Shown: one piece after another, positions 4,547 through 30,705 of the stretch
Layout of the letters: the number at the start of each line of letters is the position of its first letter
Position numbering within the stretch: the stretch's first letter is position 1
NCBI GenBank assembly: GCA_021399445.1
Contig: JAJTUQ010000003.1
Span: forward strand, 248,001 to 312,000
From: Xylogone sp. PMI_703
Taxonomy: Eukaryota > Ascomycota > Leotiomycetes
Direction: 5' to 3'
DNA: 64,000 bases
Made by a program: the position numbers and the translations under genes
Notes under the pieces: model-generated
Databases searched by the model: none
What the model saw: only the letters and a program-made list of their open reading frames with translations
Told to the model about the DNA's origin: nothing

Positions 4547-4687
4547 TTTTCATCCATTGAATTAGTAGATCTAGTTGCCACCCCGAGTCAGCATGAAGAT
4601 CCAGAGATTCGACACCACGACCTCACAAAGCCCGGGCCAGAAGCAACTTACGACAGTCCTGGTCTGCAACACCACACACAACCTTAC

Positions 4688-5299
4688 ATGATCAACCCTC
4701 TATCTTCGGTTGAGTTGCTCTCGGAAGAAGAGCTGAACATCTACAACGACCTGAACTTTGACTTCAACGACCTCCTGAACGGAGAGATCAATGTGGACAT
4801 GATAGACATTGGCAGAGTCATGACGCCTGGCTTCACCCCCGCACCGACCCTGGCGGAGACTCCATGGCCAGAGCGGGGCGGTGAGGAAGAAGAAGAAGAA
4901 GAGGCTGAAGACGAACCAGTCGTCAATATCAAGAGTCCCGTCGCGGACGCCAATGCTGCGGAGCGCGAAATCAAACCACGGCGTCACCACACCGTGGAGA
5001 AGCGCTACCGAGCGAACCTGAACGAGAAGATTGCCTGCCTTGATCGGCTGGTCTCAGGAGAATGCAAAGATGCCATATCAGAGAAGGCTCGAGCCGAAGC
5101 GCTGGCTCAGGCTCAGGCTCAGGCAAATGGCACAGGAAAGCCCAAGGCCTACCGGCAGAACAAGACAGCAGTGCTGTCCAAGGCGATCCAGTACATACAA
5201 GATTTGCAGCAGGACAACACCAAGCTGAGGGACGGCATAGACCTGCTTAGGAAACGAGCGGTAGAGGCGCGAAAGTCCTTGGCCGAGGACGGGTTATAG
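4688..5299 (+). CDS. SREBP-type bHLH transcription factor
   Basis: A 203-aa reading from the first ATG. An acidic N-terminal half has a Glu run at about residues 66-72. A basic helix-loop-helix follows at about 98-190: basic region RRHHTVEKRYRANLNEKI, a long Ala/Gln-rich loop (about 120-155), and helix 2 with AVLSKAIQYIQDLQ followed by a leucine-zipper-like tail. The Tyr in EKRYR is the residue that marks SREBP-class bHLH proteins, which bind both E-boxes and sterol elements. There is no transmembrane segment, so it resembles soluble fungal SREBP-like factors rather than membrane-anchored Sre1/SrbA. The frame stays open upstream to 4547 with plausible coding sequence (EDPEIRHHDL, PGPEATYDSP), so the real start may lie in an upstream exon. 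Direct targets cannot be read from the sequence; CACGTG sites elsewhere in the window are candidates only. Confidence 0.8.
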   Translation: MINPLSSVELLSEEELNIYNDLNFDFNDLLNGEINVDMIDIGRVMTPGFTPAPTLAETPWPERGGEEEEEEEAEDEPVVNIKSPVADANAAEREIKPRRHHTVEKRYRANLNEKIACLDRLVSGECKDAISEKARAEALAQAQAQANGTGKPKAYRQNKTAVLSKAIQYIQDLQQDNTKLRDGIDLLRKRAVEARKSLAEDGL

Positions 5300-5317
5300 C
5301 GTTTTCTTGATGGATAC

Positions 5318-8500: not shown

Positions 8501-9691
8501 GTATTCACCTTTATTCTGGCTTTTTTTTTCGCTGCCAGATATTGGGTACGTGGCCTCATGGAGCGCTTTCTTGGCCACCGAAATGATCCCACTCAAGCAG
8601 GCAATATGTGCTGTAAATATACCGAGTATATATCATGCGCGCTACAGCGGGATCCAAATAGACTGGCCCATGGTTTGCTGTCTCGAGACTGCTCTTTGCT
8701 GGCATCAACCTCTAGCGACTGGTGGAATCCTATAACAGATTCTTACATTCATCTTTTCACATTCGCTAGTAGATGGCTGTATGAGGAAGCCGGATTCTGC
8801 TTCTATTGGAAATATAGGAGAGGATTGTTGCGACCATTGTTGTTTCTACACTCTCATGATGTGTTTTTATATGAGAGTCTGACTGATTTTTCAACTTTTC
8901 GTCTGTATGAACATTTGCCAATATTGGAGGTTTTAGAGCAAGAAGTCATCGATTATATTAATCATAGATAGAGCGGTATGTTTTACTTCTGCTTAGAAAG
9001 TTTTCTCTATTGAATAGGTTTAAGCACTCGACATTTGAAAATGTGAAATTAAAAGCAATGCTCCCACATTCACACCTGTCATTTATCGAATGGGATAGGT
9101 TCTTTACCAGTGGCACTTGTGATATCCTTTCAATTATAATAATGGTTTTTTGCTCGAATGCTAAAGCTGATACAAAACCATACTGAATTTATAGGTTATG
9201 AGAGCACTTCTTTAGTTTGAATGACTTGAATATGAATATGTTAACTACTAGGACACAAGAGATAATGCAAGTATCTGAAGATTTAATCCTTGTAAGATTA
9301 TGAAAGTAGAAGTCCAAATCGATAAAAGACGTTGACATAGATACTGGATATTACTTTGAACGTAGAAGCCTTCATTATAATATAATGAAAGCTTTAGGAC
9401 ACAGAAGCAAAATGTTGGAGACAAGACAAAAGGTAGAGGACAGGTATAGGGAGTGAGTCACCGGATTGCCTGAGAAGCCCACGGTTACGAATGATTCCAT
9501 GCTTAATAGATTCATGGCCATACCAGACCTCCACCCATATATAATTATAATGCTGCGTTGCTGAAACAACAACCGGGATAGCCATTATATGTAATATTCA
9601 TTAAGGATCGTTCGTTAATCTTCCCGTTTATATAACACCAGGCGCCTGAAGAAACCAGTTATAGGAGATTAGGTATGTCAGTAGCGGTATC
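5581..9691. other. Intergenic stretch, no supportable gene
   Basis: Frames of 60 to 170 codons occur at about 5.97-6.48, 7.25-7.47 and 8.08-8.97 kb but lack any motif I can place. The minus-strand frames at 8077-8596 and the plus-strand frame at 8558-8971 might be decayed coding DNA, without evidence for a family. Simple repeats include CTG units near 5836-5860 and a GGCT tetranucleotide run at about 6684-6710. From about 7.5 kb rightwards base composition becomes AT-rich. Confidence 0.5.
6684..6710. repeat. GGCT tetranucleotide repeat
   Basis: Five consecutive GGCT units form a short tandem array inside otherwise non-coding, GC-rich DNA. Confidence 0.85.
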
Positions 9692-11542
9692 TCACACTTC
9701 AACGTTGACACTGGTAACCGTAGTTGTGGTTCGGGATTTCAGGCCATCAAGTCCGGCTTGATCGACGTCCATCACAGAGGGCGATATCTCGTCCATAAGA
9801 GAGTAGACTGGAAGATTATGAATCGGCACAAACGCATCTTTTGTCAATCTGGTAGTATATTCTCCAGTAAACACTCCTATTTCGAAAGAATTGACTTTGC
9901 TGCTGCGGTCCCTTGCTTGCAGGCAAGACTGGATCAAGCCATCTAGAGGCAAATACACAAGGCGATCGCATCCGAGCTCGTGGCAGATTTCTTTGGTGGT
10001 TTTAGAATAGGCAATTAGCTTCTCTTTCCTGCTGAGATTAATTCCATAGATGTGGTTATGCCTGGGAGATGTCAGTCTTGTAATGATAAGAAACATAAGG
10101 CCGCGTGTTTGAGGAATCCCACCTGATTGGGGGTGAGCAAGAAGCAAAAAACACCTTCTTTGCTCCGGCATTTCGTGCTATCTTTATGATTTCCCTTGAA
10201 GTTGTTCCTCTTACAATACTATCATCAATGATCAGGATATTTCGGCCTACGAATTCTTCCTCGACTGCGGTAATCTTGCGCCACACCCCGGTTCTGCGTT
10301 GGCTCTGTCCGGGAGTAATGAACGTCCTAAAGACATAGCGATTTTTAACCAAACCTTGCGAGTAAGGCTTGTTCAGGTGCTGAGCAGCTGCGAGTGCACA
10401 TGTATTGCTGGTTTCTGGAACGGGCATGATGACATCAATGTCGTCCAAGCTGTTGCCAAATTCAATTTTGAGGGCTTTAGTAAGAGCAATCCCCATATTT
10501 TGCCGGCTCTTATGAACACTAATTCCATCCATCACACTCTCAGGGCGAGCAAAGTACACATACTCGAAGATATCAGGAGTATAGGATAAGGCTGGACGAA
10601 CTGTTTTCAATAACGGCCTGTCACTCGTCGCAGGAAAGATGACGGCTTGCCCTGTTATCCTATCAGAATGTCTCACTCACAATATACAGGATATGGTATG
10701 CAACTATCCCTAATGGAACTTACCGGGTTCTACATCTCTGATGTTCGTGAAATCTAACTTGTTAAGTGCTACGCTCTCACTACTGAACATATAGTCGATG
10801 GATCCATCCGCGTTCTCTCTCTCTCCGTACACGAGGGGTTTGATGCCGTGCGCATCACGAAATCCTACTAAACCAAGCCCGGAGATCATCATGATGCAGG
10901 CAAAGGAGCCCTCGCACAAGGCGTATAACTCAGCCAAAGCATCAAAAATTGACTTGATCGTAATCGATTTGCGCGTGATGCACTTCTGCATCAGCTCCTC
11001 CATAAAGATGCAGAGCAATAGCTCCGAATCTGAACCGGCATGGAGCAAAGAACTGGCTCCGAGATGTTTTTGTAGGAAATCCGTATTCACGATATTTCCA
11101 TTCTGCAGCAACAATGGTCAGACTCAAACAGAACTTAATTGAGAGGTACTGACGTGGACTAAGTGTATCTCCAGTGGATATTGCCGTGTGAATGGCTGGG
11201 CTTCGGAGCAATGTAGCGATCCTGAAGTGGGATACCTCACTATGGAAATTGACCAAGTCAGACTACACACTACTACATACAGCACCAGACGGACTGATGT
11301 GAATACGTACAGTGCCCTATACCCATGTGCCCATTCAACTCAGCAATTGAGGCGCCTTTCGCCCCAAATACTTCTGTCGTTAAACCAATTCCCTTGTGCT
11401 GGTATGATTGTCCGTACTCGTCTGAAGTAGCAATGCCGGCGGCGTCTTGGCCCCGGTGCTGAAGGATTATTCCAGCTTCCAGTAATTCAGGAGCAGCAGC
11501 ATGTTGCGTATTACCCAACAGCAGGCCATTAATTCCGCACAT
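9692..11542 (-). CDS. Amidophosphoribosyltransferase (PurF/Ade4 family), possible NRPS-linked paralogue
   Basis: Catalyses the first committed purine step: PRPP plus glutamine to phosphoribosylamine. Five exons splice cleanly: 11542-11311, 11239-11154, 11102-10724, 10651-10123 and 10061-9692, giving 531 aa, close to the usual 500-570 aa. Visible motifs are the N-terminal MCGI (the nucleophile Cys2 is exposed after Met removal), LQHRGQDAAGIAT, GHLRYPT, HNGN, DSELLL, the flexible-loop region KNRYVFRTFI and the PRPP-binding ILIIDDSIVRGTTS. All core catalytic motifs are present. Unusual for the family as I recall it: RYPT-SGSLHC-SEAQPF with TRQYPLEIHLVHNGN, where most members have AGSSANSEAQPF and a YVNSPYG-type segment, and VWRKI where VRRKL is usual. 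It starts 911 bp from the NRPS start on the opposite strand. It could be the only housekeeping copy or a cluster-specific second copy; that needs the rest of the genome. Confidence 0.93.
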
Positions 11543-12453
11543 AGTGGCTAAAGAAGGATCGCTGAAGCAGTGTTCAGCAGTAGATTGTCTCGAACAATAA
11601 TTATTACTCAGATTATTTTCCCTGGTGGTAGATGAGCGAGTCGGGGAGTTAACTTCAGCACCATCATGGTAGGCGGGGCCGAAGATCGATTCTATAGCAA
11701 TTAATACTCAACAAATCCGTGATCTATACAAAGCCATGGTTTGAAGGGGCAAACGTCCAGATGAACTGCGCCGGGTCGCATTGTGCTATCCCAGGGCAAG
11801 CAGGGCCTTGCGTGATTGGGTCGCGTCATGTAAGAGTGGGTAGAAACGTTCAAGCGCCCGTTGTCCAGAGAGAGTGGAAGTGAAGGCTTGAAGCTGGCAC
11901 GAGAGAAGGGACGATGGGCCAAAGTGATGGATGATGCCACTGCCCTTACAGCATCGGAAGGGGCCGAAGCCCAACCCGCTCCCCTTCCTGCATGTTGGAG
12001 CATGGCACCTACTGCACCGCATGATGCCACGCTGCCACGCTTGGCTGCCCTGATACCGCATACAGGGGGCTGGCATCTCAGATGTTGCGCTCGGAGATGC
12101 TGGCGAGATTATCCGCGGCGCTCTCATGGCCTAGTAACAGTTCGGTCCTGGCATCATCAGCAGAGTCGCAGAGTGATGCTTCCCCAATGGTCTGTGCCTT
12201 CCTGGCTCAGGAGCTCTTGATGGCTCGCGGTCAAGTATATTTCGTTATAACTGATCTGCTTCTTCGCGGTCGCAGTCCAATAGGTCTTACCGTGTTTCTT
12301 CTCGCCCTCCCCCCAGACTTCTGTCTCCTATTTTCCCATTGCCATTGTATACCAGAGCAGAACACTTCAAGCTGGTTCTTCTCCCGTTCATTACACTCAC
12401 TATCCATCGCCATAACCCGGCGCTCTCATTGTTGCTGCCATCACATCATAATC
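11543..12453. promoter_or_regulatory. Divergent promoter shared by the amidophosphoribosyltransferase and the NRPS
   Basis: The 911 bp between the two start codons hold no convincing gene. An in-frame extension of the NRPS to an ATG at 12082 is open, but its sequence is low-complexity and unlike an NRPS. A CCAAT pentamer lies at 12277-12281, about 175 bp before the NRPS start, and ATTGG (CCAAT on the minus strand) is near 11815. The 14-bp palindromic site at 11954-11967 is listed separately. The arrangement allows both genes to be controlled together. Confidence 0.7.
11954..11967. promoter_or_regulatory. TCGG-N6-CCGA palindrome (UaY/Ppr1-like zinc-cluster site)
   Basis: The sequence is TCGGAAGGGGCCGA: perfect inverted TCGG/CCGA half-sites with six bases between. 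This spacing and flanking base is the form reported for the Zn2Cys6 regulators UaY (purine use, Aspergillus nidulans) and Ppr1 (pyrimidine, yeast). It sits 413 bp upstream of the amidophosphoribosyltransferase start and 487 bp upstream of the NRPS start. The match is seen directly; binding is inference, and an 8-base specification can occur by chance. Confidence 0.45.
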
Positions 12454-13270
12454 ATGTCCTACGAAGAACAGTTTGGCGAGATCCAGGAGTATTCCTCCCC
12501 AATTAACCTGACTGACCAGAAATCCCCCGTTCGAATAGTTACGACTGCCTTAGACGCGGTTGATTCTTCTACAGCTAGTTTGGAGACTTCGCCTCGCTCC
12601 ACTGAGGCGACTGCCCAGCTCGACCTCCCATTGCTCTCCCCAGAGCCTGTCCAGGCCTTCTGTGTTCAACATAGAGTAGCAGTGACCGACCTATGCTTGG
12701 CTGCATGGCTGATGGTTCTCGCTCAAGATGGACATACACAGTCACCTCAGACGGAATATCTAGTTTCCGTCAAGGACATCACTGGTCCTACTATTGACCA
12801 AACCATCACTAATGGAGCTGCCGCACCTCGAGTTTGCCGGGTGCAGCTTCGAGGCAGCGATTCTGCCCTTTGCCTCGTTAAACGTGTATATACTAACAGG
12901 CGTGATTTAGTTGGCAAGGAACTAACCCACAGCAACTCTCAATTTCTTGATCAACATATATTTAGCTTATTGACCTTCAGCCCCAATTCGCCATCAGAAT
13001 TTTATTCAGATGACCCCGATTTCAAGGTAGGTTGAATCCTACCACCAAGTTGTCCTTGGCTAAGACTTTTTGGAGCACGATGTCTGCATCAACTTCACGA
13101 GCACAGGCACCGGGATTGAAGGAATCATGTTTTATCGCACATCATCTCTTACGGATGCGCTTGCCAAATCTCTTGCCCGGAGTTTCGCGCGGAAAGTGGA
13201 AGCCATTATTGATGACCATGAACTTTGCATTGAGGACTTGCAAGCCATGACAAACATTTCACCAGCGGTT
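12454..13270 (+). other. NRPS segment: vestigial N-terminal condensation domain
   Basis: Residues about 60-260 match only the C-terminal half of a condensation domain: AFCVQHRVAVTDLCLAAW aligns with DFCADVGVTLANVFQAAW of C2, and HDVCINF with the YDVVV strand of C3. The N-terminal lobe with the HHxxxDG motif is absent. It runs into a linker (LLSEAALQCGVEAELIEDIYPST) that looks like the post-carrier linker before C4 (KVAAAQCQGVEPKDIEDIYPST), so an A-T pair seems to have been lost between them. Intron 1 (13027-13075) interrupts it at the same place as introns 2 and 3 interrupt C2 and C3. It cannot be catalytic as it stands. Confidence 0.75.
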
Positions 13271-16200
13271 ACGGATACGTCATCATCCGAAATGGGCGAT
13301 GATACAGGTCTTGAAAACTTACTATCGGAAGCAGCTCTCCAATGTGGCGTGGAAGCAGAGTTAATTGAGGATATTTACCCATCTACTCCGCTTCAAGAGG
13401 GACTTATGGCACTTACGGCCAAGCAGCCTGGGCTATATACTGGACAAGCTGCTTTCCGTCTTCCCCCGTCGCTGAATTTAGATGGATTTCGTGCCGCTTG
13501 GGAGCTAGTTGTTCAGGAGCGCGAAATCTTGCGTACTAGACTTGTCAGTCTGGGAAGTCAGGGCACACTACAGGTAGTTCTGGATCAGCCGCTGGTGTGG
13601 GATTCAGGAGAGACTTATGAATCCTATATCAAGATGGTAAAGTCAGAGCCAATGGGTTTTGGTAAACCACTAAGTCGATACGCCATTATCGATTCTTATT
13701 TCATTCTCACCATTCACCACGCTATATATGATGGCTGGTCTTTTCCATTACTCTTCCAAGATGTTGTGATGGCATACACAGAGCATACCATTGTCGACCG
13801 TGTACCATTCCAGTACTTTGTCCAATATCTGCAGGATATGGATCGAGACCAAGCAAGGTCGTACTGGGAGACGCAACTCTCCGGAAGCAGTGGTGTTAAA
13901 TTCCCAAATAGTTCCTTATCTACACAGAATCCTCTCCCACAGAGCAGTTTGACTCGAGAGGTGTCGTTTACATCAGCCCCGGAGACCTTTATGAAAACTT
14001 CACTTATCAGGGCTGCCTGGGCCCTGGTTATTTCAAGGTACACAGATGACGATGATGTCATCTTCGGTGAGACCGTTTCTGGGCGAAATGTCCCTATTCG
14101 GGGGATTGAGGGAATACTTGGAAGCACTGTCGCTACGCTACCCATACGGATCCGCGTGGATAAGGGCGCTTCTATAAAACAATTCTTGCAGAATGTCCAC
14201 GAGCAATCAGTTTCGATGATGCAATTCGAACAGATTGGATTGCAAGAAATCAAAAAATTTAGTTCTGATGCGCGTGACGCTTGCGATTTTCAACATCTCA
14301 TTACAATCAAGCCAGAGGATGAATGGGGTGGCGAATTCAGCAAGCTTGGGATCGAACCCGTCGATATAGAAGTTGAGAATTTTTACAGTTATCCCTTGAT
14401 AATGGAATTTACGCTGCTTCAGACCGGCGTCCGAGTTAAAGCTATCTTTGACAAGAATGTAATTGATTCTCAGCAAATAGCGCGAATACTTAATCAATTC
14501 GAAGCCATTGTAGGCGAGATCCAAGACGGGAATACCACTGTCGGTAGCCTTGGCAAAATCACTGCCCGCGACGTGGAAGAGATCAGCAATTGGAACGCAA
14601 GTCTACCAGAGACTGTTGATGCATGCGTTCATGACCTGATTGTAGAGAAAGCACTCTTACAACCAAGTGCTGAAGCAGTTTGTTCATGGGACGGCAGCTT
14701 TAGCTATAATGAGCTCGACAGCCTCTCAACCAAGCTGGCCCACCGTTTGAGTAGCCTCGGCGTTTCAGCGGAAGAATTTGTTCCCTTCTGTCTGGAAAAG
14801 TCAAAATGGACAGTCGTCACTATCCTGGCAATCATGAAAAGTGGAGGAGTTTGTGTTCCACTCGAGCCGGCGCATCCTCAGCAACGGCACGAGAACATTA
14901 TCAGCCAAATCAATGCTAAGTTGGTCATCATATCGCCTAGGGTATCCGGACAATGCCCTTGGTTGAGTTCCAAAGCATTCATTGTGAATGATTCTGTCTC
15001 GCAGCTTCCGGTTCTTGATAAGCAACTTCCTACGGTGAAGCCAGAGAATGCTGTTTACGTGATATTTACTTCGGGTAGCACTGGAACGCCCAAAGGAGTA
15101 GTCTGGGAGCACAGAACTTTGGCCTCTAGTTGTAAGGCACATGGGGTTGGGCTGAAGTTCATCGATAGATCCAGATTCCTCCAGTTTGCAGCACATGTAT
15201 TTGATGTTAGTGTATCCGAGATTGTCACCGTGCTGGTGCATGGTGGTTGCATATGTATACCATCCGACCAAGAGCGATTAGGGGATATCGGTCGTTTCAT
15301 ACGAGAAAAACAAGTGGATTGGGCATTCCTTACGCCAACTCTCGCCCGTCTAGTTAAGCCTGAAGATGTACCGTGTCTCAAGACACTTGTTCTTGGCGGG
15401 GAATCAATTGGTCAGGATAACGTAGAACGTTGGCGCCCACACCTACAACTCATGATAACTTATGGTCCAGCTGAGTCTTGTATCTATTGCTCATCGAATG
15501 AGGTGTCTGAGGACGGAAAAGCAGAAACGATCGGTAAAGCGGTTGGGTCCAACCACTGGATCACAGATAGCAACGACCCTTCGAAACTTATGCCTATTGG
15601 GGCCGTTGGTGAAATTCTTGTTGAGGGTCCGATTTTAGCACGGGGGTACTTGAATGATGTCAATAAGACAAGCTCCTCTTTTGTCGTCGATCTTCCATGG
15701 GCTCAACCAAATAATGCAGGCCAGAAGCGCCGATTCTACCGAACAGGAGACTTGGGAAAATACAATTGTGATGGATTTATAGACTTCGTTGGGCGAAAAG
15801 ACGGTCAAATTAAACTTCGAGGTCAACGCCTCGAAATGAATGAGGTTGAGCAAAAGTTATCCCGTGTTGAGGAAGTCAAACATGTTGTTGTGGCCTTCCC
15901 AACATCAGGACCATACCACAGAAAGCTTGTGGCAGCGGTGGAGTTGCACCATGAGATGGGTTTCAATGATAACAGTACAACCCTAGAACTCTTCCCTTCT
16001 TCACGGAGTGAACAATCGATATCGTTGTTATCAAAAATCCGCAGGGAGGTTTGGCAAATTCTGCCAGAATACATGATACCAAGTGTCTGGATACCTCTTC
16101 TCAATATCCCCAAAAATACTTCGGGCAAGGTAGACAGATCATATGTGAAGCAATGGATATCTGCAGTTGACTATGATACATCAGCGTTGATATCTGAGCT

Positions 16201-19200
16201 GTCAGTAGAGAAGGATTTCACGCAGCCAAACACTCCATTAGAAAGAGAATTACAGCAGATTTGGGGGGAGATTCTCAATATTCCGTTGAAGCAGATTGGA
16301 ATTGATATGCCATTCCTTAGACTGGGGGGCGATTCTATCAGCGCTATGCAAGTGATGGCAAAGTGTTATGCTAATAACATTGCAATAACGACTCAGCAAA
16401 TTCTTCGACACCAAACGATCGAGAGGCTAGCGTTAGAAGCAAAACCTCTTCAACTCGATCACAATATTACTATAGAAGAAGATTCAATGCCGTTTGAGCT
16501 TTCTCCTATCCAACAACTTCATATAAGGCGGGGATCGGGTGGTGATAACTTCTCTCAGAGCTTCCTGCTTCAGATACATCAGAAGATCTCGCCTCAAAGA
16601 CTCTATGATGCAATTGAGATGCTCGTAGAAAGGCACTCCATGCTCCGTGCCAAGTTCATCCAATCTTCAGAAAGCGAATGGGCTCAGCAGATCATGCCAT
16701 ATACGCGCGGTCTCTTCTCATATAGCACTTCTGAGATTCTGAATGCAAGTGTGGAAGAGCTTGAGCCGTCCATTACTAAGACACAGAGTTGCTTGAATAT
16801 GCGAAATGGCCTCGTATTTGCTGTACATGTATTTATCACACAACAAGGAGATTCGGTTGTCCTATTTACGGCCCACCATCTTGTTATTGACCTGGTTTCC
16901 TGGAGAATCATTTTATCGGAGCTCGAGGAAATACTTAAACATGAAAATGCTTTAACAACAGCGCCCTTATCTTTCCAAACCTGGAGCCGGATGCAGGCCG
17001 ATTATGCCCATGATTCTTTAGCGTCCTTACCACCGTTGGACATTCCTCGAGCCGACTATGATTACTGGGGTATGGTCAATATCCCTAATGTGACCTGCGA
17101 TACAATCGCTTCAACCTTTTCAATTTCTGAAGAGTTAACTTTGAAGCTGTTAGAGTGTAATAAAATATTCAAGACGGAGTTGCTCGATTTATTAATATCT
17201 GCCGTCACATACTCCTTTTCACAGACATTCCAAGATCGATCAATACCTCCCGTTTTCGTTGAAGGTCACGGGAGAGAACCATGGAGTCCGTCCATAGACT
17301 TATCGAGGACCGTTGGCTGGTTTACAACTATATACCCAATCTTTGTTCCAAATATAGCTGGCCTGATTGATACTATACGCCAAGTTAAAGATACTCGAAG
17401 ACGTATCCCTGACAATGGGTGGTCGTACTTCACATCAAGTTTGCTTTGTGCTCCCGCCAAAGAAAGGTTTAGTTATGAGTTCCCATTTGAGATTCTGCTA
17501 AACTATTCTGGCGCTTATCAGCAATTGGAGCGTGAGGATGCACTTTTTAGCTTTCTACCATCAAACGCCATAGGCCTCGATTCATCTCAAATGAACCGGT
17601 TTGAGCTGTTTGACATTGAGGTCACTATGAACAAAGGTGCTTTAGAATTCCTATTCTCCTACAATACCCAAATGAAACACCAAGAAAAAATCCGCCAGTG
17701 GATCGACCAATGTCATGATGTACTTGCGCTGATGGCAGTGGAGCTTGCTTCAATGAAGCCTAGTTTAACGCCGACCGACTTTCCACTTATTACAATGACA
17801 TATGCTGACATTGAGAGGATGACAAATGTATTACTACCAGAAATGGATATTGAAGATGCATACCCTTGTTCCTCTATGCAGGAGGGTATCCTGATGGCTC
17901 AGATCAAGGAACCTGAAAAATACAATGTCCAATTGGTCTTCCAGATCTCCCCTGGCCAGGATCAAAAGGACAGCATTGACGTCCAGAGACTCCAAAGTTC
18001 TTGGCAAGCAGTCGTCAATCGCCACGCAATACTCCGAACCGTGTTTATTGAAGGACTTTGTAATGACGGTGTATTCCAACAAATCGTGCTAAAAACTCAT
18101 AGAGCAGATGTTTACCATATCGAATGCGAACGCAAGGAAGAGCCTATACGTCTTCTGGAAGATCACCCATTCTTTGGTTACAAGGAACATCACCCACCTC
18201 ACCGTCTTGGTATATGCCGAGTGCAATCAGGTGAAGTCTACTGTCGGCTAGATATTAGCCACACCCTTAACGATGGGATGTCCACCAAGGTCATGTTGCG
18301 AGATCTTATAGACATTTATAATGGACGCTCTTTGAGCAGAACGGCACCATCATATGCGGAATATATTTCCTACTGCATCAAAAATCCAATAAGTGCTTCC
18401 ATAGATTATTGGATCAACTATCTCAATGGTGTTAAGCCTTGCCATATTCCTCTGTTGGATGCAGAACCAAGCATTGATCGACAAGTACTAACTATGAATG
18501 TTGAATGCTCAGAAGCTGATACTTTGGTCTTGCGCGACTTTTGTGCTGATGTTGGGGTTACTCTTGCCAATGTCTTTCAAGCAGCGTGGGCTATTGTTCT
18601 GCGCACATATACTGGGGAGGACGATGTGTGCTTCGGTCATGTTTCTTCAGGAAGAGATCTCCTTATACCACACATTCAAGATATAGTTGGGCCTTTTATC
18701 AATATGCTTGTCTGCCGCTCAAACTTGGATAAAGAAAGACAAATTGTCGACGTTATCTGCCAGATGCAAGAAGACCATATTTCAAGTTTAACCCACCAGC
18801 GATGTTCGCTGGCGGCGATACAAAACAAGCTTAAGATCTCTAAAGAAGGTTTGTTTAACACAGGCCTGTCAGTACAGAAGATCACTCAAATGTCGAATTC
18901 AAATCTAAGTGAGGCTTCTGTGGAACAAATAGGAGGCTACGATCCTACAGAGGTAAGTACTTCTGGAATATATCTTTATACTCGGATATTACATGTACAT
19001 TCTTCCTTGACCGCTATCTAACCAACTTCCAGTTTGACATCATGGTAAATGTGGCTGATTCGCCTACACAAGTTGGCATATCATTCAACTACTCGAACAG
19101 AATATCAGAATTGCAAGCTCTGCATATTTCAAAGACCTTTTCAAAGGTACTTTCCTCCATTGTGTCGCGTCCTAGTTCAAAAATCAGCAATGTAGACCCT

Positions 19201-22200
19201 CTAAGCGATTTTGATAAAGCCCAAATCAACAGTTGGCATGAGCAGCTACCGGACTTTTTAACCACTGAAGAGTGTATTCATGAAGCTTTTAGGTGTCGCG
19301 CAGAGTTACATCCAAATGCACCAGCAATATGTTCATGGGATAGAAACCTTACCTACGCAGAGCTAGACGACTTATCCACACGTCTTGCTAACCACCTCGT
19401 GAGTCTTGGCGTCAAGCCTGAGGCTATTGTCATGCTGTCGTTCGAGAAGTCGACCTGGGCAGTTGTTTCCATCCTAGCTGTTCTCAAAGCGGGAGGTTCT
19501 TGCGTGACGCTCGACGCATCGCTTCCGCTGGGTCGTGTCCAGAGCATTCTTCTTGCAACTGAATCTGATATAATGCTCACCTCAGCATCTCAGAGTAATA
19601 TATTCACTGGTCTTTTCAAACATTCTATTTCCATCAATGAAGAATTGGTTTCTTCGCTCCCAAGTCCACTTGCTTCTACTTATGCAGCATCTATATGGCC
19701 AGATGTGCGACCTGATAACATGGCATTCGTCGTCTTTACATCTGGATCCACAGGTACACCTAAAGGTGTTATGCTAGAGCATAGAACTATATGTTTTAGC
19801 GCTAGAAGCCACGCGGAAGCTGAACACGTAGGACCTAGCTCAAGGTACCTCCAGTTTTCTGCTTTTGCTTTTGATGTGTATATATCGGAAATTTTCGTGC
19901 CACTATTATGCGGTGGCTGTGTCTGTATTGCAACGGAGGAAGAGCGAAGAACAGATATAGCTGGTGCAATTACTCGTTTTAGTGTTACTCACGCTACTCT
20001 AACTCCAACAGTTGCCACATTCTTCTCACCAAAAGATGTTCCAACTCTAAAAATGCTAGCACTCGGTGGTGAAGCCATGACTAGGGAGAATGTAGCCACC
20101 TGGGCCGGTCAAGGTCTTCACTGGTTCAATGTTTACGGTCCTTCAGAAACTTCGAATTTTGTGTGCGTAGAACCTGTCCGCACTGCCCAACCTGCCAACC
20201 TTGGACGTGGAGGGATTAAGGTGTGGCTAGTTGATATAAATAATCAGAGCAGATTGTCGCCAATTGGCTGTGTCAGTGAGCTTTACGTTGAAGGCCCAAG
20301 TTTAGCCAGGGGGTATCTGAATGATCCCGACAAGACTAAGGATTCTTTTATTACAAATCCACCATGGTTAGATAGCCCCTGTGGAGGGCCCAACGATCGA
20401 ACTAATAAGGCACGGCGAGTGTATCGAACTGGTGATCTTGTTCAGTACAATCTAGACGGAACTTTCTCTTATATTGGGCGAAAAGACTCGCAGGTCAAAA
20501 TCCGTGGTCAACGCCTTGAAATTGCAGAAGTCGAACATCAATTGCTTGACATAGTCGATGTTAAACATTGCTTTATTGATTATCCTAGGTCTGGACCATG
20601 CTCGAACCGAATTGTAGCTGTTATGACACTGCATGAGTTGTCGAATATTCCGGATCCTTCTATATTGAAGATTGTGACCTCGATGCATACCGGACGAATT
20701 GCTAAGAAAATATCAGCAATTCAAGACTCATTGAGTGATAAACTCCCAGCATGGATGGTGCCAAGTATATGGATCGTTGTTGAAGAATTACCCCTATCAG
20801 TCTCATTGAAATTGGACAGAAGCAGAATAAAGAGTTGGCTGAAGCAAATGAGCGATGAGACGTTCAATACAATATCACGGCTATCTCTAGAGACATCGGT
20901 TGTTCTACCCACAACGCCCTTGGAAAAACAGATCCAACAAATTTGGTGTCAAGTTCTTAATCTACCAGAGACAAAAATTGGTGTACAAACATCATTCCTC
21001 CGAGTAGGTGGCGACTCAATTACAGCAATGCAGGTTATTGCAAAGTGTCGGGCTATTAATATTTCCCTCTCAATATCTGATATCTTGCGGAATTTTACGA
21101 TCTCCCAGCTGGCTGTTAGAGCACAGTCTGTTCAGAGCAATCAACTTAATGTTAAAGAAGAATATAATACGGCGTTCCATCTCTCACCAATCCAGCAAAT
21201 GCATCTCAGCCGTGGTTCTGCAGGCGATAAGTTCTCTCAAAGCATATTCCTCCGCGTGAATGGAGATGTTTCATCTCAGAATATTCAGAATGCTCTTGAG
21301 ATCCTTGTTGAACGGCATTCAATGCTTCGAGCAACTTTTTCGCAGTCTTCCAGTGGAGAATGGACTCAGAAGACCAGGGCCTATTCGCCAGGGCTATTCT
21401 TGTTCAGATGTTCAGAGGTGACAGATTCTAAAGAACTTGGACCTCTTGCGTCTGAAACGCAACGGGGTCTGAACTTCTATAATGGTCCCCTCTTTGCAGC
21501 CCACCTTCTATTCACTTCATCAGAAGGCACCATTCTTTTCTTAGTCGCACACCATCTTGTTATTGATTCGGTTTCGTGGCGCATATTGTTATCGAATTTG
21601 GAAGAATATCTTCAGCGGGGCAATATATCAACTCCACGACCACTACCTTTTCAAAATTGGAGTAAGGTGCAATTTGAGCAAGCAAAGACAATTAACCCTG
21701 CTGATACTTTACCTTTTGATGTTCCTATTCCAAATTATGCATACTGGGGAATGGCAGATCGTTCAAACTTGATATGTGACACAATCTGCAAAACCATTAC
21801 TATCAGCTCAGCGACTACTTCGGCACTTGTGGATGAGTGTAATCGACCTATGAGGACCGAAATCCTAGACTTGTTATTATCTGCGGTTTCTCATTCGTTT
21901 GCGCGTGTATTTACGGATCGTGAGGTTCCGCCGATCTATAACGAAGGGCATGGCAGAGAACCAGGGGATGATTCGATCGATCTCTCACAGACGGTTGGAT
22001 GGTTTACGACTATATATCCTATTGCTATACCAACAAGAAATAATATTGTCGATACTGTTAAAATAGCCAAAGATAACCGCCGTAAGGTACCAAGGAATGG
22101 ATGGAATTACTTCACCTCTTGCACAATGTCGCCAGGAGGGAGCAAAGCTTTTGCTAGCCATTTCCCATTCGAGGTTCTACTGAACTACTCAGGCTCCTAC

Positions 22201-25200
22201 CAGCAACTAGAGCATAAGGAGAGTCTTTTCAGTCAATTTTCAACAGAAATCACAGGTTATGTCTCCGATATTCCACAAATGTCACGTTTCGAATTATTTG
22301 GAATTGAAGCTGTCATTGATAGAGGTTCGCTGCGACTCGATTTCAACTACAACGCTCACATGAAACACCAAAGTCTTATTCAGGAATGGATTAAAGAAAT
22401 TGAAATTGTGTTGGGGGAGATGCCTGCGCAAATGGCTTCCATAGAGCGACAGCTTACGTTAACCGACTTCCCCCTGTTACCATCAATGAGGTACTCCGAT
22501 ATTACAAAGTTGACGACTGAAGTGCTACCTCAGCTGGACATTGACAACATAGATGATATTGAGGACATATACCCCTGCACTCCAATACAAGAAGGTATGC
22601 TTGTATCTCAGATAAAAACACCTGAGAATTACAAAGTCAATAGCCTCTCTCGCGTGGTACCGGCCCCAGGACAGCCAATAATTGACGTGGAAAGACTTCA
22701 AAATGCTTGGCAAGCAGTTGTAAATCGCCATAGCATCCTCAGAACTGTTTTTATCGAAGGTCTCTCTAATGACGGCCTGTTCCAACAAATTGTGCTAAAG
22801 AAGTTTAAAGCAGACTTTTTCCGCCTGAAATGCAACAAGAGTGACGAAGCACTACGAATGCTGCAGGATTACCCCTCAACTGATTATACAGCGCTTCGTC
22901 CATCTCACCGTTTGGGAGTTTGTCAAGTTTCGTCTTCCAGCGACGTTTATTTCAGGCTAGAGATCAGCCATGCCCTGACCGACGCATTCTCCACCAAAAT
23001 AATTGAAAGAGACTTTATCCAGGCTTACGCAAATGCCCTCCCAACCATTCCTGGTCCATTATACTCTGATTATATTTCTTATATTCAAGCTCAAGATATG
23101 AACGTGCCACTGGAGTTCTGGAAGAATAAGTTATCAGGTCTTAAACCATGCCACTTTCCAGTTTCGGATAGAAGCCAAAATCAGCAAATCATCAAGAAGG
23201 AAATAAAGGATATTCAGGTTCCTTTTATTAGTGCCACATCGGTTCATTCCTTCTGCGAAGAACATTCTGTGACACCATCGACGCTTTTCCAAGCTGTCTG
23301 GTCCTTTGTGCTAAAGACATACACTCAGAATAGGTCAATCTGCTTTGGATACGTATCTGCTGGACGTGATCTACCAGTTTTCCAAATTGAGGATACGGTA
23401 GGGCCATTTATTAACATGCTCGTATCTTACACCAAATTCGTTGACACGGATTCGGTAATGAGTGTTTTAAGAAATATACATACAAACTTTGTGGACAGTC
23501 TACCGCACCAGATTTGTTCTCTAGCATCGATCCAACATGAACTAGAGTCAGACGGAACCGCATTGTTCAATACATCAATGTCAATTCAAAGGAGGAGCAA
23601 TTCCATCCTGGATCAGAAGAGTGAATCCGGCATCCAAATTGAATCTCTTGATGGGCAGGACCCCAATGAAGTATATATCCTCTTGTTATGTTTACATATT
23701 TTGCAACTGACTCGCCTCTAGTACGATGTTGTTGTAGGCATTTATGATTCCGATATGGCACTCGATGTTTCAATTCTTTACAACAAGAACTGCTTATCCG
23801 AAAGTTTTGCAACAAGGGTCGCACACACATTTGCGAAAGTCTTGTCTTCTATAATAGCCAGCCCAGATCAGATGGTCAAAGACTTAGATCCTCTAAGTGA
23901 TTATGATAAGTCACAGATCCAGAGCTGGCATTATCCATTACCTGAGGTTGATCAACGGTGTATTCACGAAGCTTTTACCGCGCAAGCGCTAGCTCACCCC
24001 AACAACATCGCTATCTCTTCGTGGGATGGAGAGCTAACTTACGCGGAACTTGAAGACCTCTCAAATAGACTAGGCTACTACCTGTCCACTTTTTGTGGCG
24101 TTAAAGCTGAAGTTATCGTCCCCCTATGCTTTGAAAAATCGATCTGGGCTGTTGTATCAATGCTAGCAGTCCTTAAAGCAGGCGGGGCGTGCGTGAGTTT
24201 CGATATCTCGCATCCTTTCAGTAGAATGCACAATATAATCCAGGAAACAAAAGCACGTGTGATGCTCACTGGGCCAGCTCACTGTGCAAAGTTTGCTGAC
24301 TCCATCGACACACTTATCACTATTGACGAATCCTTTGTTTGTTCCCTTACAGCTTGCAGTGGACCAATTTCATCCGATGTCAAACCCACCAACTTAGCCT
24401 TTATTGTCTTTACTTCTGGAACGACTGGTAAACCAAAAGGAATCATGTTAGAGCACAAAACGGTTTACTTTAGTGCTCGCTGTTTCGAGAAAGTGTGGAA
24501 TATCTCCTCGGATTCCCGTTTCTTCCAATTTTCATCCTTCGCCTTTGACGTATATATAACTGAGATATTCGGGCCCCTTACTTGTGGGGCTTGCGTATGT
24601 ATGCCGTCTGAAGATGAGAGAAAAAACGACCTAGGAGCTACGATTCACAGACTGCAGGCCACTCACTTGATAATTACTCCGACTATAGCTACCGTTTTAC
24701 AGCCACACGAAGTGCCAAGTGTTCAGTATATGGGCCTTGGCGGTGAAGCATTGTCAAGAGAGAATCTTCTTACATGGGCAGACAAAGTCAACCTCATCAG
24801 TACATATGGGCCTTCGGAGACGTCAAACTGGGTCTCAGCACATGTGATGACAACTGCAGCAGAAAATCCCACGAACCTTGGGCGCGGTATTGATACTCAC
24901 TGTTGGATTGTAGATCCGGAAAACAGAGACCGGCTGGTTCCTATTGGTTGTATCGGTGAGCTCTATGTTTCAGGCCCTTCATTGTCTCGCGGATACATAA
25001 ACGATCCTATCAAAACAGAAGAAGCTTTTGGAATGTGTCCACCGTGGGCGGTAGATACTGAAGGTACACAATCTCGACGAGTTTACCGTACTGGCGATCT
25101 AGTCTGCTATAACTCGGATGGCACGTTTAACCATATGGGTCGGGGTGACTCTCAGCTTAAGATTCGTGGGCAGCGCGTCGAGCTCACTGAAATCGAGCAT

Positions 25201-28200
25201 CACCTACTCAACGCTCCAGACACCAAATACAGCATAGTCCATGTCCCAACATCAGGTCCATTTGCAGGCCGGCTCGCAGCCGTCATGGTGCTTCATAAAT
25301 TTGCTGATTTAGAGGCTCCTCAGCCTCTAAGAGTCCTATCTTCGGGCTTTAAAGAGCAGATTTCGATAGCAATGTCGTCAATACATGACTATATCGTCGA
25401 AAGATTACCAGCTTGGATGGTGCCAGAAGTGTGGATTATAGTTGAAGACCTTCCGCTTTCTATATCAGGCAAACTAGATAGAAGTTCCATACGAAACTGG
25501 GTTGCAGATATGGATAAGGAGACTTTCCAACAAGTATCTCAGCACTTTGTTGACGCCACAATCCTCCCGCCAGAAACACCCGAAGAAAAGGAGCTGCAGC
25601 AGATGTGGAGCGAAATTCTGGGAGTCAGTTCCGAGAGTATAGGAACAAACAGTTCATTCTTGCGACTAGGGGGTGATTCAATTGGTGCCATGAAGCTAGT
25701 AGCTGTCGTACGTCGTCGGACATCTTGGGCTCTCAGCGTGGCCGATATATTTCGGCATCCGACACTCTCTGCCATGGCTGCATCCGCTATTTCCGCTACT
25801 CCAGCTTCACAGGTGATTAGTACAACCGAAAATATCGCGCCATATACATTGATCGATGGATGTGATGATATTGATTCCTTGTGCAAGGTTGCTGCTGCCC
25901 AGTGCCAGGGAGTTGAGCCTAAGGATATCGAGGATATCTATCCCTCAACGACCTTACAAGAAGGCCTTCTCGCTCTATCAGCTAAGCAACCAGGAACCTA
26001 CGTGGCTAGGTATGCATTTACCCTTCCTGCGCACTTGGACATAGATCGATTCAGATCTGCTTGGGATCATGTTTTCCGGCTCTATCCAATCCTTCGCACA
26101 AGGTTTATAACTACCGAGTCATTCGGTACTCTCCAGGTGGTGACAAATCATCGAATGGTTTGGTACTCTTCTAAGTCAGAAATATCTATGGAGGAGTACA
26201 TAAAGCAAGACAAAGAAAGTCCTATGTCATTCGGGGCACAGCTGAGCCGATTTGCGATTGTCAATGGCCACTTCGTTATCACAGCTCACCACGCAGTCTA
26301 CGACGGTTGGTCACTGCCATCCCTGATGGACGACGTAGCCAAGATATATCGTGGTATCGCACTACCAGATCGACCGCCATTCAAAAACTTTATTAGTTAT
26401 ATTCGAGGAATCAAAAAATCTGCCGCTGAGGAATACTGGACCAAGCAACTTGATGGTGCAAAATCAACTATGTTTCCAAAACTCCCTTCTCAATCATATC
26501 AGCCGCTTGGTAACTCGTCCATTGTGCATGAAATTTACCTACCTCCGAAGGAGAGTAGCAACATTACCGCGTCTACAGTCATTAGAGCCGCATGGGCTCT
26601 GGTGGTTGCTCGCTATAGCGACGAGCGTGATGTCACCTTTGGTGTCACTGTCTCAGGTCGCAGTGCTCCTGTAGAGGGGATTGCTGATATGATAGGAACC
26701 ACAATCGCTACTGTTCCTGTGCGAGTCAACCTGGACGAAATATCCGGCATCTCTGTCTCTCATTTCCTAGAGTGGATCCAGCATCAGTGGTTTGACATGA
26801 TTCCATTTGAACAAGTCGGGCTGCAAGAAATTGGAAAGCTGAGCCCAGAGGCGAGAGCTGCGTGCCGTTTCCAGAATCGTCTAATCATCCAACCGCAAGG
26901 CGGAAATGACAGTGAGTTTGAATCCATGGGAATTCGAAGTGTCGACACGGATGGGGAGAATTTCCATACCTATGCCATCACTCTAGACTGTGCTCTGCTT
27001 TCTACGGGTGTTAAGGTTACTGCTGTCTTCGATGAATCTGTGGTGAACAGTCAACAGATGGCCAGGATTCTGAATCAGTTTGAGAGTGTTATTCGGGAGC
27101 TCCAAAATGATAACGCTACAATCGATAACATTGTTAGAATCTCAGCTCAAGATCGACAAGAAATTGACAGCTGGCATGAGCCTGTGCCACCAGCAATTGA
27201 GGAATGTATACACGAGGCATTCACTCGCCAGGTTTTGGCTCAACCAGACGCTCCCGCTATATGCTCCTGGGATGGAGAGCTTACTTACACAGAACTTGAC
27301 GACCTATCAACGCGGTTAGCATCTGAGCTTGTTCGTCAAGGCATCACATCCGAAAACGTGGTTCCACTTTGTTTTGACAAATCATTGCTAGTCATCATTT
27401 CAATGCTCGCGGTTCTCAAGGCCGGTGGCGCTTGTATGACATTGGATACTTCTCACCCTGTTGGCCGTATGAAAGATATGTGTCGTGAAGTCCAGCCGCG
27501 TGTTATACTCACCTCCCCCGAATATTCTGAACGTTGGCTATCTGGCGACAGCGAGGTGATTATAGTAGATGAGCAATATCTCAAATCCCTCCCCAGTCAT
27601 GTAGGTCCAGTATGCACCACCGTCCAGCCTGACCATCTAGCTTTCCTTATTTTTACCTCCGGATCTACAGGAAAGCCAAAGGGAGTTATGCTGGAACACA
27701 AGTCAGTGCGTACCAGTGCACATAATGCCGCCAGACTTTTCAATGTGGGACCATCTTCACGCGGTCTACAATTTTCAGCATTTGCATTCGATGTTTACAT
27801 CTACGATATATTTACCGCGCTGATGCACGGAGCCTGCGTCTGTGTCCCATCTGAAGAAGAGAGGAGAAGTAGTTCAGGATTATCTGGCGCCATAAACAAG
27901 CTTCAGGCCAGTTATGTTTATCTTACCCCAACTGTGGCTACATGGTTTGGACCAGATGACGTGCCCACGATTAAGCAAGTCGCCTTTGGTGGTGAACCTC
28001 TAACACAAGAGAATGTATCCGTATGGGCTAGTAAGGTCCGCATTGTCAACGTCTACGGGCCTTCCGAAACTTCAAATTGGGTTAGCTATAAAGTTGTGCA
28101 CCCAGATACCAAACAACCCGGCAATATCGGATCGGGTCCTTATACTAATACATGGCTTGTCGACCCACACAATTCTAGTCAGCTAGCTCCAATTGGGTGT

Positions 28201-30705
28201 GTTGGGGAAATATATGTTGAGAGCCCTACGGTTTCTCGTGGTTACTTTAACGATCCTGTTAGGACTAAAGAATCTTTCATTATCAATCCTCCATGGGTAG
28301 AAATTCAGTCAGGCCAACGACGAATGTACCGGACAGGGGACCATGCTTGTTACAACTCCGACGGAACATTCTATTTTGTGGGACGTACAGACTCTCAACT
28401 TAAAATACGAGGCCAGAGACTAGAACTCGGCGAAATACAACATCATGTAGTTGAGTCAAAGGGTATACGACACGGCTTTGTTGATTTCCCGAAATCCGGA
28501 CCCTGTGCTGGTAAGCTCATTGCGGTTATATCACTCAGTGAGTTTTCAACTGCGAGCTCAACAGCTCTCCGGCTTCTTTCAGCAGAGCGAAAGGATCGTG
28601 CATCAGAAATAATATCAAACGTCTGTGATTACATTGCTGATAGACTTCCGGCATGGATGATACCGACGGTATGGGCAGTGGTGGAAGCACTCCCAATGTC
28701 GGCATCCGGCAAATTGGATCGCGCACGATTAAGGAGCTGGACTTCCGAGATGAGTACTGAAATATTTGGCCTAATATCACATTTGTTTGTGCAATCCTTA
28801 GTTACAGAGCCCAGGACACCCACTGAGAGACTTCTCCAACAAATATGGGGTTCTGTATTGGAGGTCAAGCCGGAGAATATAGGGAGCAACAGTTCCTTCT
28901 TACGGCTTGGCGGTGACTCTATTAGTGCCATGAGACTCGTTTCCCAGTGTCATAAGAATAATCTCTACATAACAGCTTATGATATCCTCCGGGGCCATAC
29001 AATCTCAGAACTTGCTGCCAAATTGGACACCATGGAGAATGAACAGAGTCTTAGGGATGCCTATACTACGAAGGCTTCACCAAATGTCTTCCCTAAGGCT
29101 CTCATCGATACAATCCAAGCACAGACACGACAAGAAACTCCTGCGATAGCTCAGATCTCTGTGGCTTCCGATTTCCAAGTTGCATCTTTTACCCAGCAAA
29201 TACTTCAACAGCATGGAAACCTCAACTATTACATATTCGATATTGAAGGGCCACTCGATGTTAAGCACTTGAGATCTTGCTGTCAACTCCTACTAGAAAA
29301 GCACTCCATATTACGGAGCGTTTTCGTAGCGCACGAAAGAAGAATTTACCAAGCTGTCTTAGAGGGTATGCCAGTTAACTTTTCTCTCTTGCAAGGAAGC
29401 AAAGAGGCGTGCTACTCTATCATCAAAGAAGACCAGCAGATCGAATTCTGCCTTGGAGATATCCTTACTGCCTTCATGTTAGTTGAGGAGACCCCGAATC
29501 GACATTCACTCATAGTTCGGCTGGCACACGCCGTATACGATGGTATCTCCATTTCTAAAGTATTCCTTGACCTCCAAGAAGTATATGCTGGACGTGCAAT
29601 GTCAGAGTACACTGATTTCTCGCTATATCGTCAGTTTAAGGATTCTGTATCACAAGAGAGCCAACAATATTGGCTCAGTTACCTCCAGGGAGCGAAGATG
29701 ACAAAATTTCTTTCACGACCAAGGCCCTCGTATAAGGACTTCACCAATAGCTCGGTCCATCGGATGATAACTATGGCACCCTTGTCACAGAACGGTATTA
29801 CCACAGCGAATATTATTAAAGGTGCTTGGGCATTGTGCTTGGCCCAATTATCAGGAGAATCCGACGTCGTGTTTGGAGAACTTGTGAACGGCCGTAGCGT
29901 GCCCGTAGCCGGTATTGACAATATGATTGGTGTTACTCTTAGTAACATCCCCGTCAGGGTGCAGCTTGACCAGTCCATGACTGTTTTGGATTTCCTCCAG
30001 AAAATTCAGGAGAGGCAGCTTGAGAGTATGCCTTTTGAATCGTTTGGCTTTAATGAAATTGTGGAACAATGCACTGAGTGGCCGCAATGGACTCAGCTCG
30101 GCTCAATCATTACGCACGACAATCTTGCTGCCCCTCATACGTCTTTCTCTACTTCAGATTGCCAATGGAATCTACGAGAAGTAAACGGCAACGGAAATGA
30201 CGAAGCGGATATCGGTATCACATCGACTATTGACGGCGACAAGCTGTCTATCTCCATTGGGTTTTGCGACCGCCTACTCTCTAATGAATTTATGAACGAC
30301 GTGCTCGATCAGCTCTGCTATCTCATCCAATTCTTCGCAAACTATCCACTAGATAACTTGCCTGATTATTCTTCGCCCGTTTTCAGCGAACGTATACCTT
30401 TACCACACTCCCAGGGCTTCCTACCGAAAAAACTTACTGCAGCCACACGCTCGGATGACGCCACCTTGACCGTGGTACGACAGATCTGGAACTCCGTTCT
30501 CTGCGATGAAAAACGGACATTTAGTCTTGAAGCTATTACTGAGGATACACCATTCTATAACGTATGGGGAAAGCTCATCGCAGCCGCTCAGTTCAGTTTC
30601 GCCTACCGACAGAAGGGGTTTAAAATTAGCATGGAGGAAATTATCGACCACCCTACTATTCGCACACAAGTGGACTTGTGCATTGAAAAATCTCTCCAGG
30701 GCTAA
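12454..30705 (+). CDS. Tetramodular non-ribosomal peptide synthetase with two epimerisation domains and a terminal condensation domain
   Basis: Four exons (12454-13026, 13076-18952, 19033-23670, 23722-30705) give one frame of about 6023 aa. The start at 12454 is the first ATG after the promoter with a good context. Domain order by residue: vestigial C (about 60-260), C1 (288; HHAIYDG at 404), A1 (727-1207), T1 (Ser1278), E1 (HHLVID, 1458), C2 (1782; SHTLNDG), A2 (2249-2743), T2 (Ser2812), E2 (His2990), C3 (3326; SHALTDA), A3 (3796-4281), T3 (Ser4349), C4 (4432; HHAVYDG), A4 (4876-5358), T4 (Ser5429), terminal C (5517; AHAVYDG, His5632) and a T-like domain with Leu at the Ser position (5981). 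There is no thioesterase or reductase. In fungi a terminal C domain usually releases by macrocyclisation, so a tetrapeptide D-aa1, D-aa2, L-aa3, L-aa4, probably cyclic, is predicted. Substrates are not assigned. Confidence 0.95.
13340..17790 (+). other. NRPS module 1: C1-A1-T1-E1
   Basis: C1 has an intact IHHAIYDGWS motif although there is no upstream carrier domain to feed it, so it may be unused or accept an external acyl group. A1 has FTSGSTGTPKG, YGPAES, YRTGDLG and SGKVDR. The ten specificity positions, read by alignment to GrsA numbering, are D-V-S-F-V-G-T-I-Y-K. T1 carries GGDSI. E1 shows SPIQQLHI, AHHLVIDLVSW, EGHGREP and VGWFT, so residue 1 should be handed on as D. Confidence 0.85.
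17790..22490 (+). other. NRPS module 2: C2-A2-T2-E2
   Basis: C2 follows an E domain and has SHTLNDGMS, as expected for a D-donor condensation domain. Intron 2 (18953-19032) lies in its C-terminal lobe. A2 reads D-V-S-T-A-G-V-N-F-K at the specificity positions. Its last core motif is VSLKLDR rather than SGKLDR: the catalytic Lys is kept but the Gly before it is Leu. T2 carries GGDSI and E2 has AHHLVIDSVSW plus EGHGREP. E1-C2 and E2-C3 are closely similar to each other, pointing to module duplication. Confidence 0.85.
22490..25830 (+). other. NRPS module 3: C3-A3-T3
   Basis: C3 has SHALTDAFS, with Ala in place of the usual Gly after the catalytic Asp. It accepts from the E2-epimerised carrier. 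Intron 3 (23671-23721) lies at the same point as intron 2 in C2. A3 has FTSGTTGKPKG, and its specificity positions read D-V-T-I-G-G-T-N-W-K. T3 carries GGDSI. There is no E domain, so residue 3 should stay L. Confidence 0.85.
25850..29030 (+). other. NRPS module 4: C4-A4-T4
   Basis: C4 has AHHAVYDGWS and resembles C1 along its length rather than C2 or C3, which fits an LCL-type domain accepting from a non-epimerised donor. A4 has FTSGSTGKPKG, and its specificity positions read D-V-Y-Y-A-G-V-N-W-K, close to A2 at the last five. T4 carries GGDSI. The A3 and A4 sequences are strongly alike around A4-A5 (SETSNWVS in both). Confidence 0.85.
29080..30705 (+). other. NRPS terminal unit: release-type C domain and Ser-less T-like domain
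   Basis: The last condensation domain keeps an AHAVYDG catalytic motif with no following A domain, the arrangement of fungal macrocyclising terminal C domains. After it, residues about 5940-6015 have the length and flanks of a carrier domain (TVVRQIWNSVL, then FKISMEEIIDHPTIRTQVDL). The core reads FYNVWGKLIAAAQF where FF-LGGDSI-A-Q is expected, so Leu5981 replaces the Ser that would carry phosphopantetheine. It cannot be charged and is probably structural or a relic. Confidence 0.8.

Follow-up and report, generated by a model that had tools for sequence, protein, structure and literature searches.

A diverged amidophosphoribosyltransferase gene lies head to head with a nonribosomal peptide synthetase gene in Xylogone sp. 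PMI_703

Introduction

Why does a gene for the first committed step of purine synthesis stand beside a gene for a large nonribosomal peptide synthetase (NRPS) in a filamentous fungus? The question is raised by a window of 64,000 nucleotides, i.e. the whole stretch of DNA analysed here (C19:248001-312000), from the assembly of Xylogone sp. PMI_703, which comprises 50.1 Mb in 25 contigs. NCBI taxonomy places Xylogone in Leotiomycetes incertae sedis. An extra housekeeping enzyme beside biosynthetic genes has a well-known precedent: a copy of IMP dehydrogenase accompanies the mycophenolic acid cluster. A sequence-only reading of the window had offered two explanations for the pair, namely that the enzyme is a self-resistance copy protecting the producer from its own peptide, or that it couples peptide production to the purine or PRPP state.

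Results

Arrangement of the pair

The ADE4-type gene and the NRPS gene lie head to head on opposite strands with an ATG-to-ATG gap of 911 bp, as the sequence-only reading had stated. The intergenic region (11543..12453, 911 bp, assigned to neither strand) contains both 5' ends and is a putative shared promoter region. None of 8 regulatory patterns counted in this gap was enriched, and the site TGACTC, which we take to be of the Bas1/Gcn4 type, is absent from it. The pair is located about 258 kb from a contig end. No telomere repeats were found in the first 600 bases of the contig, and plasmid records gave no match, as expected for a fungus. So far the pairing is known from the genome of Xylogone sp. 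PMI_703 alone.

In the genome 83 condensation-domain matches (82 above cut-off) were obtained and grouped into 24 loci, so that chance neighbours of NRPS genes do exist. The odds of a given gene standing head to head with an NRPS start are about 0.2%, a post hoc figure that assumes a gene number of about 15,000. It is quite possible, and we place it second among the explanations and below an even likelihood, that an old accessory isozyme of some Leotiomycetes with an unrelated role of its own, for instance under particular conditions, has come to lie by chance beside a lineage-specific NRPS. The 24 loci and the absence of enrichment for any pattern in the gap (0/8) speak for such a coincidence, whereas the head-to-head spacing of only 911 bp speaks against it.

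The amidophosphoribosyltransferase of the window

The ADE4-type gene (9692..11542, minus strand) has by predicted splicing 5 exons (11542-11311, 11239-11154, 11102-10724, 10651-10123 and 10061-9692) and codes for 531 aa; its introns are of the GT-AG type in 4/4 cases. The deposited protein P0001, "amidophosphoribosyltransferase [Xylogone sp. PMI_703]", corresponds to it with 100% identity over 100% of the length. The glutaminase and PRTase domains of the PurF/ADE4 family are present with their catalytic residues, and the NCBIfam purF equivalog model is passed with 368.9 bits at a cut-off of 350. All three proteins of clade A, which unites the window copy with its two close relatives (see below), retain the glutaminase residues C1, R73, N101, G102 and D127 (E. 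coli numbering, Cys1) as well as the DDS motif; K326 and R328 are unchanged in the window copy as well. Feedback sites apart, the catalytic and functional roles of these residues are those that we presume. The window copy is probably a working, though strongly altered, PRPP amidotransferase. A pseudogene was considered separately and rejected given the open frame, the GT-AG introns and the catalytic residues kept in three species.

Compared with the ADE4 protein of Pseudogymnoascus, divergence of the window copy is largest in the glutaminase domain (49.3% identity) and the C-terminal part (32.9%) and smallest in the PRTase core (61.4%). Strong divergence of the two former parts, the core being less affected, would fit an enzyme that has left purine synthesis and converts glutamine and PRPP, or another sugar phosphate, into a building block of the peptide. 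Such new chemistry appears very improbable, however, given the unchanged DDS motif, K326, R328 and glutaminase catalytic residues, the passed purF equivalog model and the lack of a recognised follow-on enzyme nearby.

A second ADE4 gene in the same genome

A sole ADE4 gene, lying at this locus in relatives that lack the NRPS, would have spoken against the sequence-only reading. The first half of this does not hold: we found exactly one more ADE4 gene, elsewhere on the same contig. Two protein searches, using the window enzyme and the Pseudogymnoascus ADE4 as queries, and three pattern searches covering two motifs all returned the same 2 loci in 50.1 Mb, the window gene and C19:4884163-4886533. 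A third motif pattern, with two mismatches allowed, gave 15 matches including both ADE4 loci, its reversed control 11. The second gene codes for 563 aa in 13 exons and is identical to the deposited P0241. Among 9 chosen ORFs in about 20 kb around it, Pfam identified aminotransferase (two ORFs), DUF7165, F-box and short-chain dehydrogenase domains, and no biosynthetic cluster was recognised.

The second copy is nearest to Sordariomycete proteins (82% identity to Cordyceps sp. RAO-2017, among the best 120 of 7999 matches) and nests among them in a 69-row tree. Ahead of its NGN motif it carries V and not H. The query from Pseudogymnoascus, a member of the Leotiomycetes with the H type, detected no H-type Xylogone copy besides the window gene. 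Claussenomyces, which also belongs to the Leotiomycetes, has a V-type ADE4, so that several origins come into question for the Sordariomycete-like second copy: it may go back to transfer, to replacement or to an old patchy paralogue. Two ADE4 proteins each with V before NGN were found in Cordyceps sp. RAO-2017 (P0242/P0266) and Paramyrothecium foliicola (P0254/P0309), i.e. ADE4 duplication recurs in Sordariomycetes.

Over residues 1-490 of the window protein, the two Xylogone copies share 48.0% identity. None of the 4 introns of the window gene shares its alignment column with any of the 12 introns in the second copy; the nearest pair lies 4 columns apart in the same phase. We therefore rejected a recent duplication of the second ADE4 as the origin of the window copy.

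Close relatives of the window copy

Among the best 120 of 7961 homologues, only Bisporella sp. PMI_857 (71% identity over 100% of the query) and Halenospora varia (75% over 90%), both Helotiales, provided close relatives of the window copy; the remaining matches listed were 46-53% identical. A phylogeny, as suggested in the sequence-only reading, set these three proteins, termed clade A, off from housekeeping ADE4 with an SH-aLRT of 100 and a stem of 2.06 changes per column (3 of 69 rows). The tree was obtained by a quick method from 69 of 238 ADE4 proteins that were hand-picked for named species, and we do not trust the placement of the long clade A branch within it. The proteins came from two homologue lists (best 120 of 7961 and best 120 of 7999, 118/120 of the latter being new) that contain no ordinary ADE4 of Bisporella or Halenospora. 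The clade A gene is located on a contig of 2,758,670 bp in Halenospora varia and of 83,310 bp in Bisporella sp. PMI_857.

Changes at otherwise constant positions

To describe the divergence of clade A, the 238 ADE4 proteins were aligned together with E. coli PurF. From this alignment we selected the 93 columns with a constancy of at least 98.5% in the 235 proteins that do not belong to clade A. All three clade A proteins deviate at 12/93 of these columns, by 11 substitutions and one gap, while the single members deviate at 13, 15 and 18 of the 93. The changes, which include G95E, R188K, R347W and D408N (E. coli numbering, Cys1), lie mostly in the glutaminase domain, where both G95E and the gap, a residue lost at N123, are found; one, R347W, sits in the loop after the KNRYV motif.

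Selecting columns without clade A biases its count upwards. Since clade A had been left out, five hand-picked control groups were likewise excluded before the columns were chosen. Deviations common to all members then amounted to 1/94 for the Orbilia group (5 proteins), 0/93 for yeasts (5), 1/95 for a Lipomyces-like group (3), 0/93 for Pezizales (3) and 0/93 for three close relatives of the second Xylogone copy. E. coli PurF deviates at 8/93 columns; the second Xylogone copy, which is itself among the 235 proteins, shows 0 deviations.

Divergence from the housekeeping clade together with intact catalytic residues, as seen in the window copy, is what is looked for in a target copy, and judged from the alignment, this pattern of changes suits an altered, working target copy. 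Constant residues were hit while catalytic ones were kept, beyond what an ordinary isozyme seems to need, which argues against a mere chance neighbour.

Feedback sites

For PurF, residues whose change confers feedback resistance are named in PMC4223553, E304, K326 and P410 among them. In the numbering used here, E304 of that source corresponds to a T column, one residue off, and we took the neighbouring E to be meant. All three clade A proteins retain this glutamate, which belongs to the PETS motif, and K326 and R328 are kept as well. At the P410 position clade A has S, the other homologues A (221) or T (12); wild-type B. subtilis likewise has S at the position of E. coli P410. The clade A substitution D408N lies near this known feedback site. 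The equivalents of B. subtilis K305, R307 and S347 are kept in clade A by a hand count on the alignment. A feedback-insensitive isozyme arising through known sites was rejected, none of them being in the resistant state.

A second enzyme might nevertheless serve supply or regulation by boosting the flux of purines or phosphoribosylamine when the NRPS is on, given the ATP demand of adenylation or the need for a precursor. The divergent layout permits joint expression, and the S at the P410 position and D408N near the feedback site would fit. On the other side, the resistance sites named in PMC4223553 are not in the resistant state in clade A, and the scanned stretches yielded no recognisable purine-tailoring gene, so that we regard this role as improbable. 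Likewise, the proposed coupling to the purine or PRPP state gained no support: the feedback residues are not of the resistant kind, and TGACTC is missing from the 911-bp gap.

The nonribosomal peptide synthetase

The NRPS gene (12454..30705, plus strand) is tetramodular according to Pfam domains, predicted splicing and motif order and codes in 4 exons for 6023 aa. It starts with the ATG at 12454, and once its introns (13027-13075, 18953-19032 and 23671-23721) are spliced out it has no internal stop. An in-frame stop at 23719-23721 could have been taken for a broken gene; we rejected this since it falls within the 51-bp intron.

The deposited model P0121 (4098 aa) begins at residue 1926 of the 6023-aa protein. 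Its start follows the condensation-domain core motif at 1919, so that it is probably truncated at the start. It misses the first 1925 residues of an open, spliceable gene (window 12454-18310).

The domain order comprises a partial C-like start, followed by C-A-T-E, C-A-T-E, C-A-T, C-A-T, CT and a last carrier-like stretch without the carrier serine. The partial start was read by eye, and the E domains, the CT domain and the last carrier were named by motif and not by a dedicated model. In particular, we read the motif HHLVIDLVSW of the first E-type domain as epimerase-like and the motif AHAVYDGIS of the C-like terminal domain as CT-like. The sequence-only reading had described a cyclopeptide-type NRPS; multimodular C-A-T organisation with a terminal C-like domain was indeed found, cyclisation itself being predicted only. 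The domain order predicts a product of four residues, two of them D, that is released by the CT-like domain; it would be a small and probably macrocyclic peptide.

Another large NRPS, a 7,634-aa open frame, is encoded on the same contig at C19:150457-172903, about 85 kb left of the ADE4 gene.

Surroundings of the pair

In six frames of positions 1-9690 the only Pfam match was a bHLH-domain ORF (4547..5296, plus strand), a candidate member of a cluster; the adjoining 4.4 kb or so to the left of ADE4 (window 5300-9690) are free of Pfam matches in six frames. On the other side, the six frames of 30706-35507 contain a SnoaL-like stretch (about 31969-32205, minus strand) and a gene that combines GH28 with CBM1. 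In six frames of 1-9690 and 30706-35507, Pfam showed neither a classical tailoring gene nor a transporter gene. Companion genes for tailoring, transport or regulation, which are common beside an NRPS though not strictly required, were accordingly not established here, and the lack of further classical cluster genes recognised by Pfam directly beside the pair adds to the case for a coincidental arrangement.

Selected ORFs further right encode a GDSL lipase, aldehyde dehydrogenases, a glutathione S-transferase and a cupin, as well as a fungal transcription-factor domain and dehydrogenases. Outside the window to the left, 9 of 10 ORFs gave matches that include an HD-domain protein, a type I phosphodiesterase/nucleotide pyrophosphatase, transporters and zinc-cluster-type regulators. 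The HD-domain ORF and the type I phosphodiesterase/nucleotide pyrophosphatase ORF lie in tandem at C19:243324-245254, about 12 kb left of ADE4, and are possible nucleotide-related neighbours.

Relatives of the synthetase and co-occurrence with clade A

Relatives were sought with the part 18913-30702 of the NRPS, considering among the best 120 of 1491 matches proteins of about 2160-6880 aa as candidates. No orthologue outside Xylogone was found within this range. Among the matches listed, the 14 best other proteins reach 34.6-39.7% identity in their best long alignments. The five top-scoring of these come from Aspergillus and Penicillium and are in register from residue 1780 or so onwards at about 36%; two of them, P0186 and P0202 from Aspergillus, are named nonribosomal peptide synthetase 8. 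P0186 resembles the window NRPS in its end, C-A-T-E, C-A-T, C-A-T and a C-like terminal domain, with a register over about 4300 aa, and differs in being 36.6% identical and in starting with A-T, C-A-T instead of C-A-T-E. Among the best 120 of 7961 ADE4 homologues no clade A protein from Aspergillus occurs.

For the two other clade A species, no row named Bisporella occurs among the best 120 NRPS matches, many of which are nameless, and Halenospora varia has one NRPS among the matches listed, P0196. It lies on a 17,647-bp contig, other than that of its clade A ADE4, lacks the first module and is cut at the start. P0196 ranked first or second for 11/11 single-domain queries among the 119 other proteins listed; next came Phlyctema vagabunda P0123, first or second in 7/11 domain queries, with identities of 37-51%. 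P0196 is, however, collinear with P0123 (52.5% over 5141 aa), and the module order of both differs from that of the window NRPS. Despite its domain ranks, P0196 was therefore rejected as the orthologous NRPS.

Taken at the level of protein sequence, the comparison leans against an ADE4-NRPS linkage in other species, though such a linkage may exist. Clade A occurs in two further species without a detected orthologue of the window NRPS among the matches listed, and for this reason chance adjacency gains weight.

Discussion

Xylogone sp. PMI_703 has two intact ADE4 copies, and the one adjacent to the NRPS gene is diverged with its catalytic residues retained. Adjacency, copy number and substitution pattern lead us to favour self-protection, tentatively, only narrowly ahead of chance adjacency and with less than even confidence: the window copy would be a stand-in target that shields the producer from an inhibitor made with this NRPS. 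The altered ADE4 and the orphan NRPS would form a divergent unit of two genes. The NRPS, alone or with other genes, would make an inhibitor of the ordinary ADE4 (C19:4884163-4886533), and the producer would rely on the window copy, with its changes at positions that are constant elsewhere, to sustain the first step of purine synthesis. Three points of this scheme are inferred: ADE4 as the target of the product, insensitivity through the altered residues, and joint expression of both genes. The narrower version, in which PRPP amidotransferase is inhibited by the finished NRPS peptide itself and clade A protects the producer by being insensitive, seems rather unlikely.

Of the self-resistance copy proposed from the sequence, one part stood: the genome has a second ADE4, and the copy in the window has diverged with its catalytic residues kept; linkage and co-inheritance have so far found no support among the best 120 of 1491 NRPS matches. 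Against self-protection we counted the absence of an NRPS orthologue from the matches listed, the unchanged feedback positions and the classical cluster genes that went unrecognised. On balance, an altered target copy that still works and a neighbour by chance agree with the facts about equally well. We regard the pair as a promising lead, short of demonstrated resistance.

If the pair is functional, the target of an uncharacterised peptide would have been named from its sequence alone, and the way would open towards a natural inhibitor of the enzyme at the first committed step of purine synthesis. In that case the twelve changes specific to clade A would provide a short set of candidate sites for insensitivity, in an enzyme that is well studied. 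If the adjacency is due to chance, clade A is still an unusual ADE4 present in three species, in which positions constant in fungi are more altered than in the E. coli enzyme and the catalytic residues are intact.

How does the pair compare with known systems? The window copy shares with housekeeping fungal ADE4 the domain order, the catalytic residues and membership in the purF equivalog, and differs from it by the 12 clade-specific changes at constant columns and by having no intron position in common with the second Xylogone copy. Like the fungal NRPSs of the HC-toxin and fungisporin type, which make cyclic peptides and end in a CT domain, the window NRPS has four A domains, epimerase-type domains and a C-like terminal domain; unlike them, it has its epimerase-type domains after modules 1 and 2 and a full C domain before the first A.

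A fungal cluster of an NRPS with a PRPP amidotransferase was not found among the titles and abstract openings consulted in the open-licence PMC literature. Fungal clusters that carry target copies are well documented, in line with the sequence-only reading; examples are the acetolactate synthase PtsB (PMC12616698) and a proteasome beta6 subunit with fellutamide (PMC10734572). The Xylogone pair agrees with such clusters in that an extra housekeeping enzyme lies beside a core gene, the other copy being elsewhere. It differs in that the target would be PRPP amidotransferase, one genome is involved, classical cluster genes were unrecognised and the case consists of genes only. A further parallel is the adenylosuccinate synthetase homologue reported in Hypoxylon clusters in PMC12616698. 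These clusters, as described there, concern another purine step and contain a PKS-NRPS with several tailoring genes; in common with the Xylogone pair, they have a homologue of a purine-pathway enzyme beside fungal biosynthetic genes.
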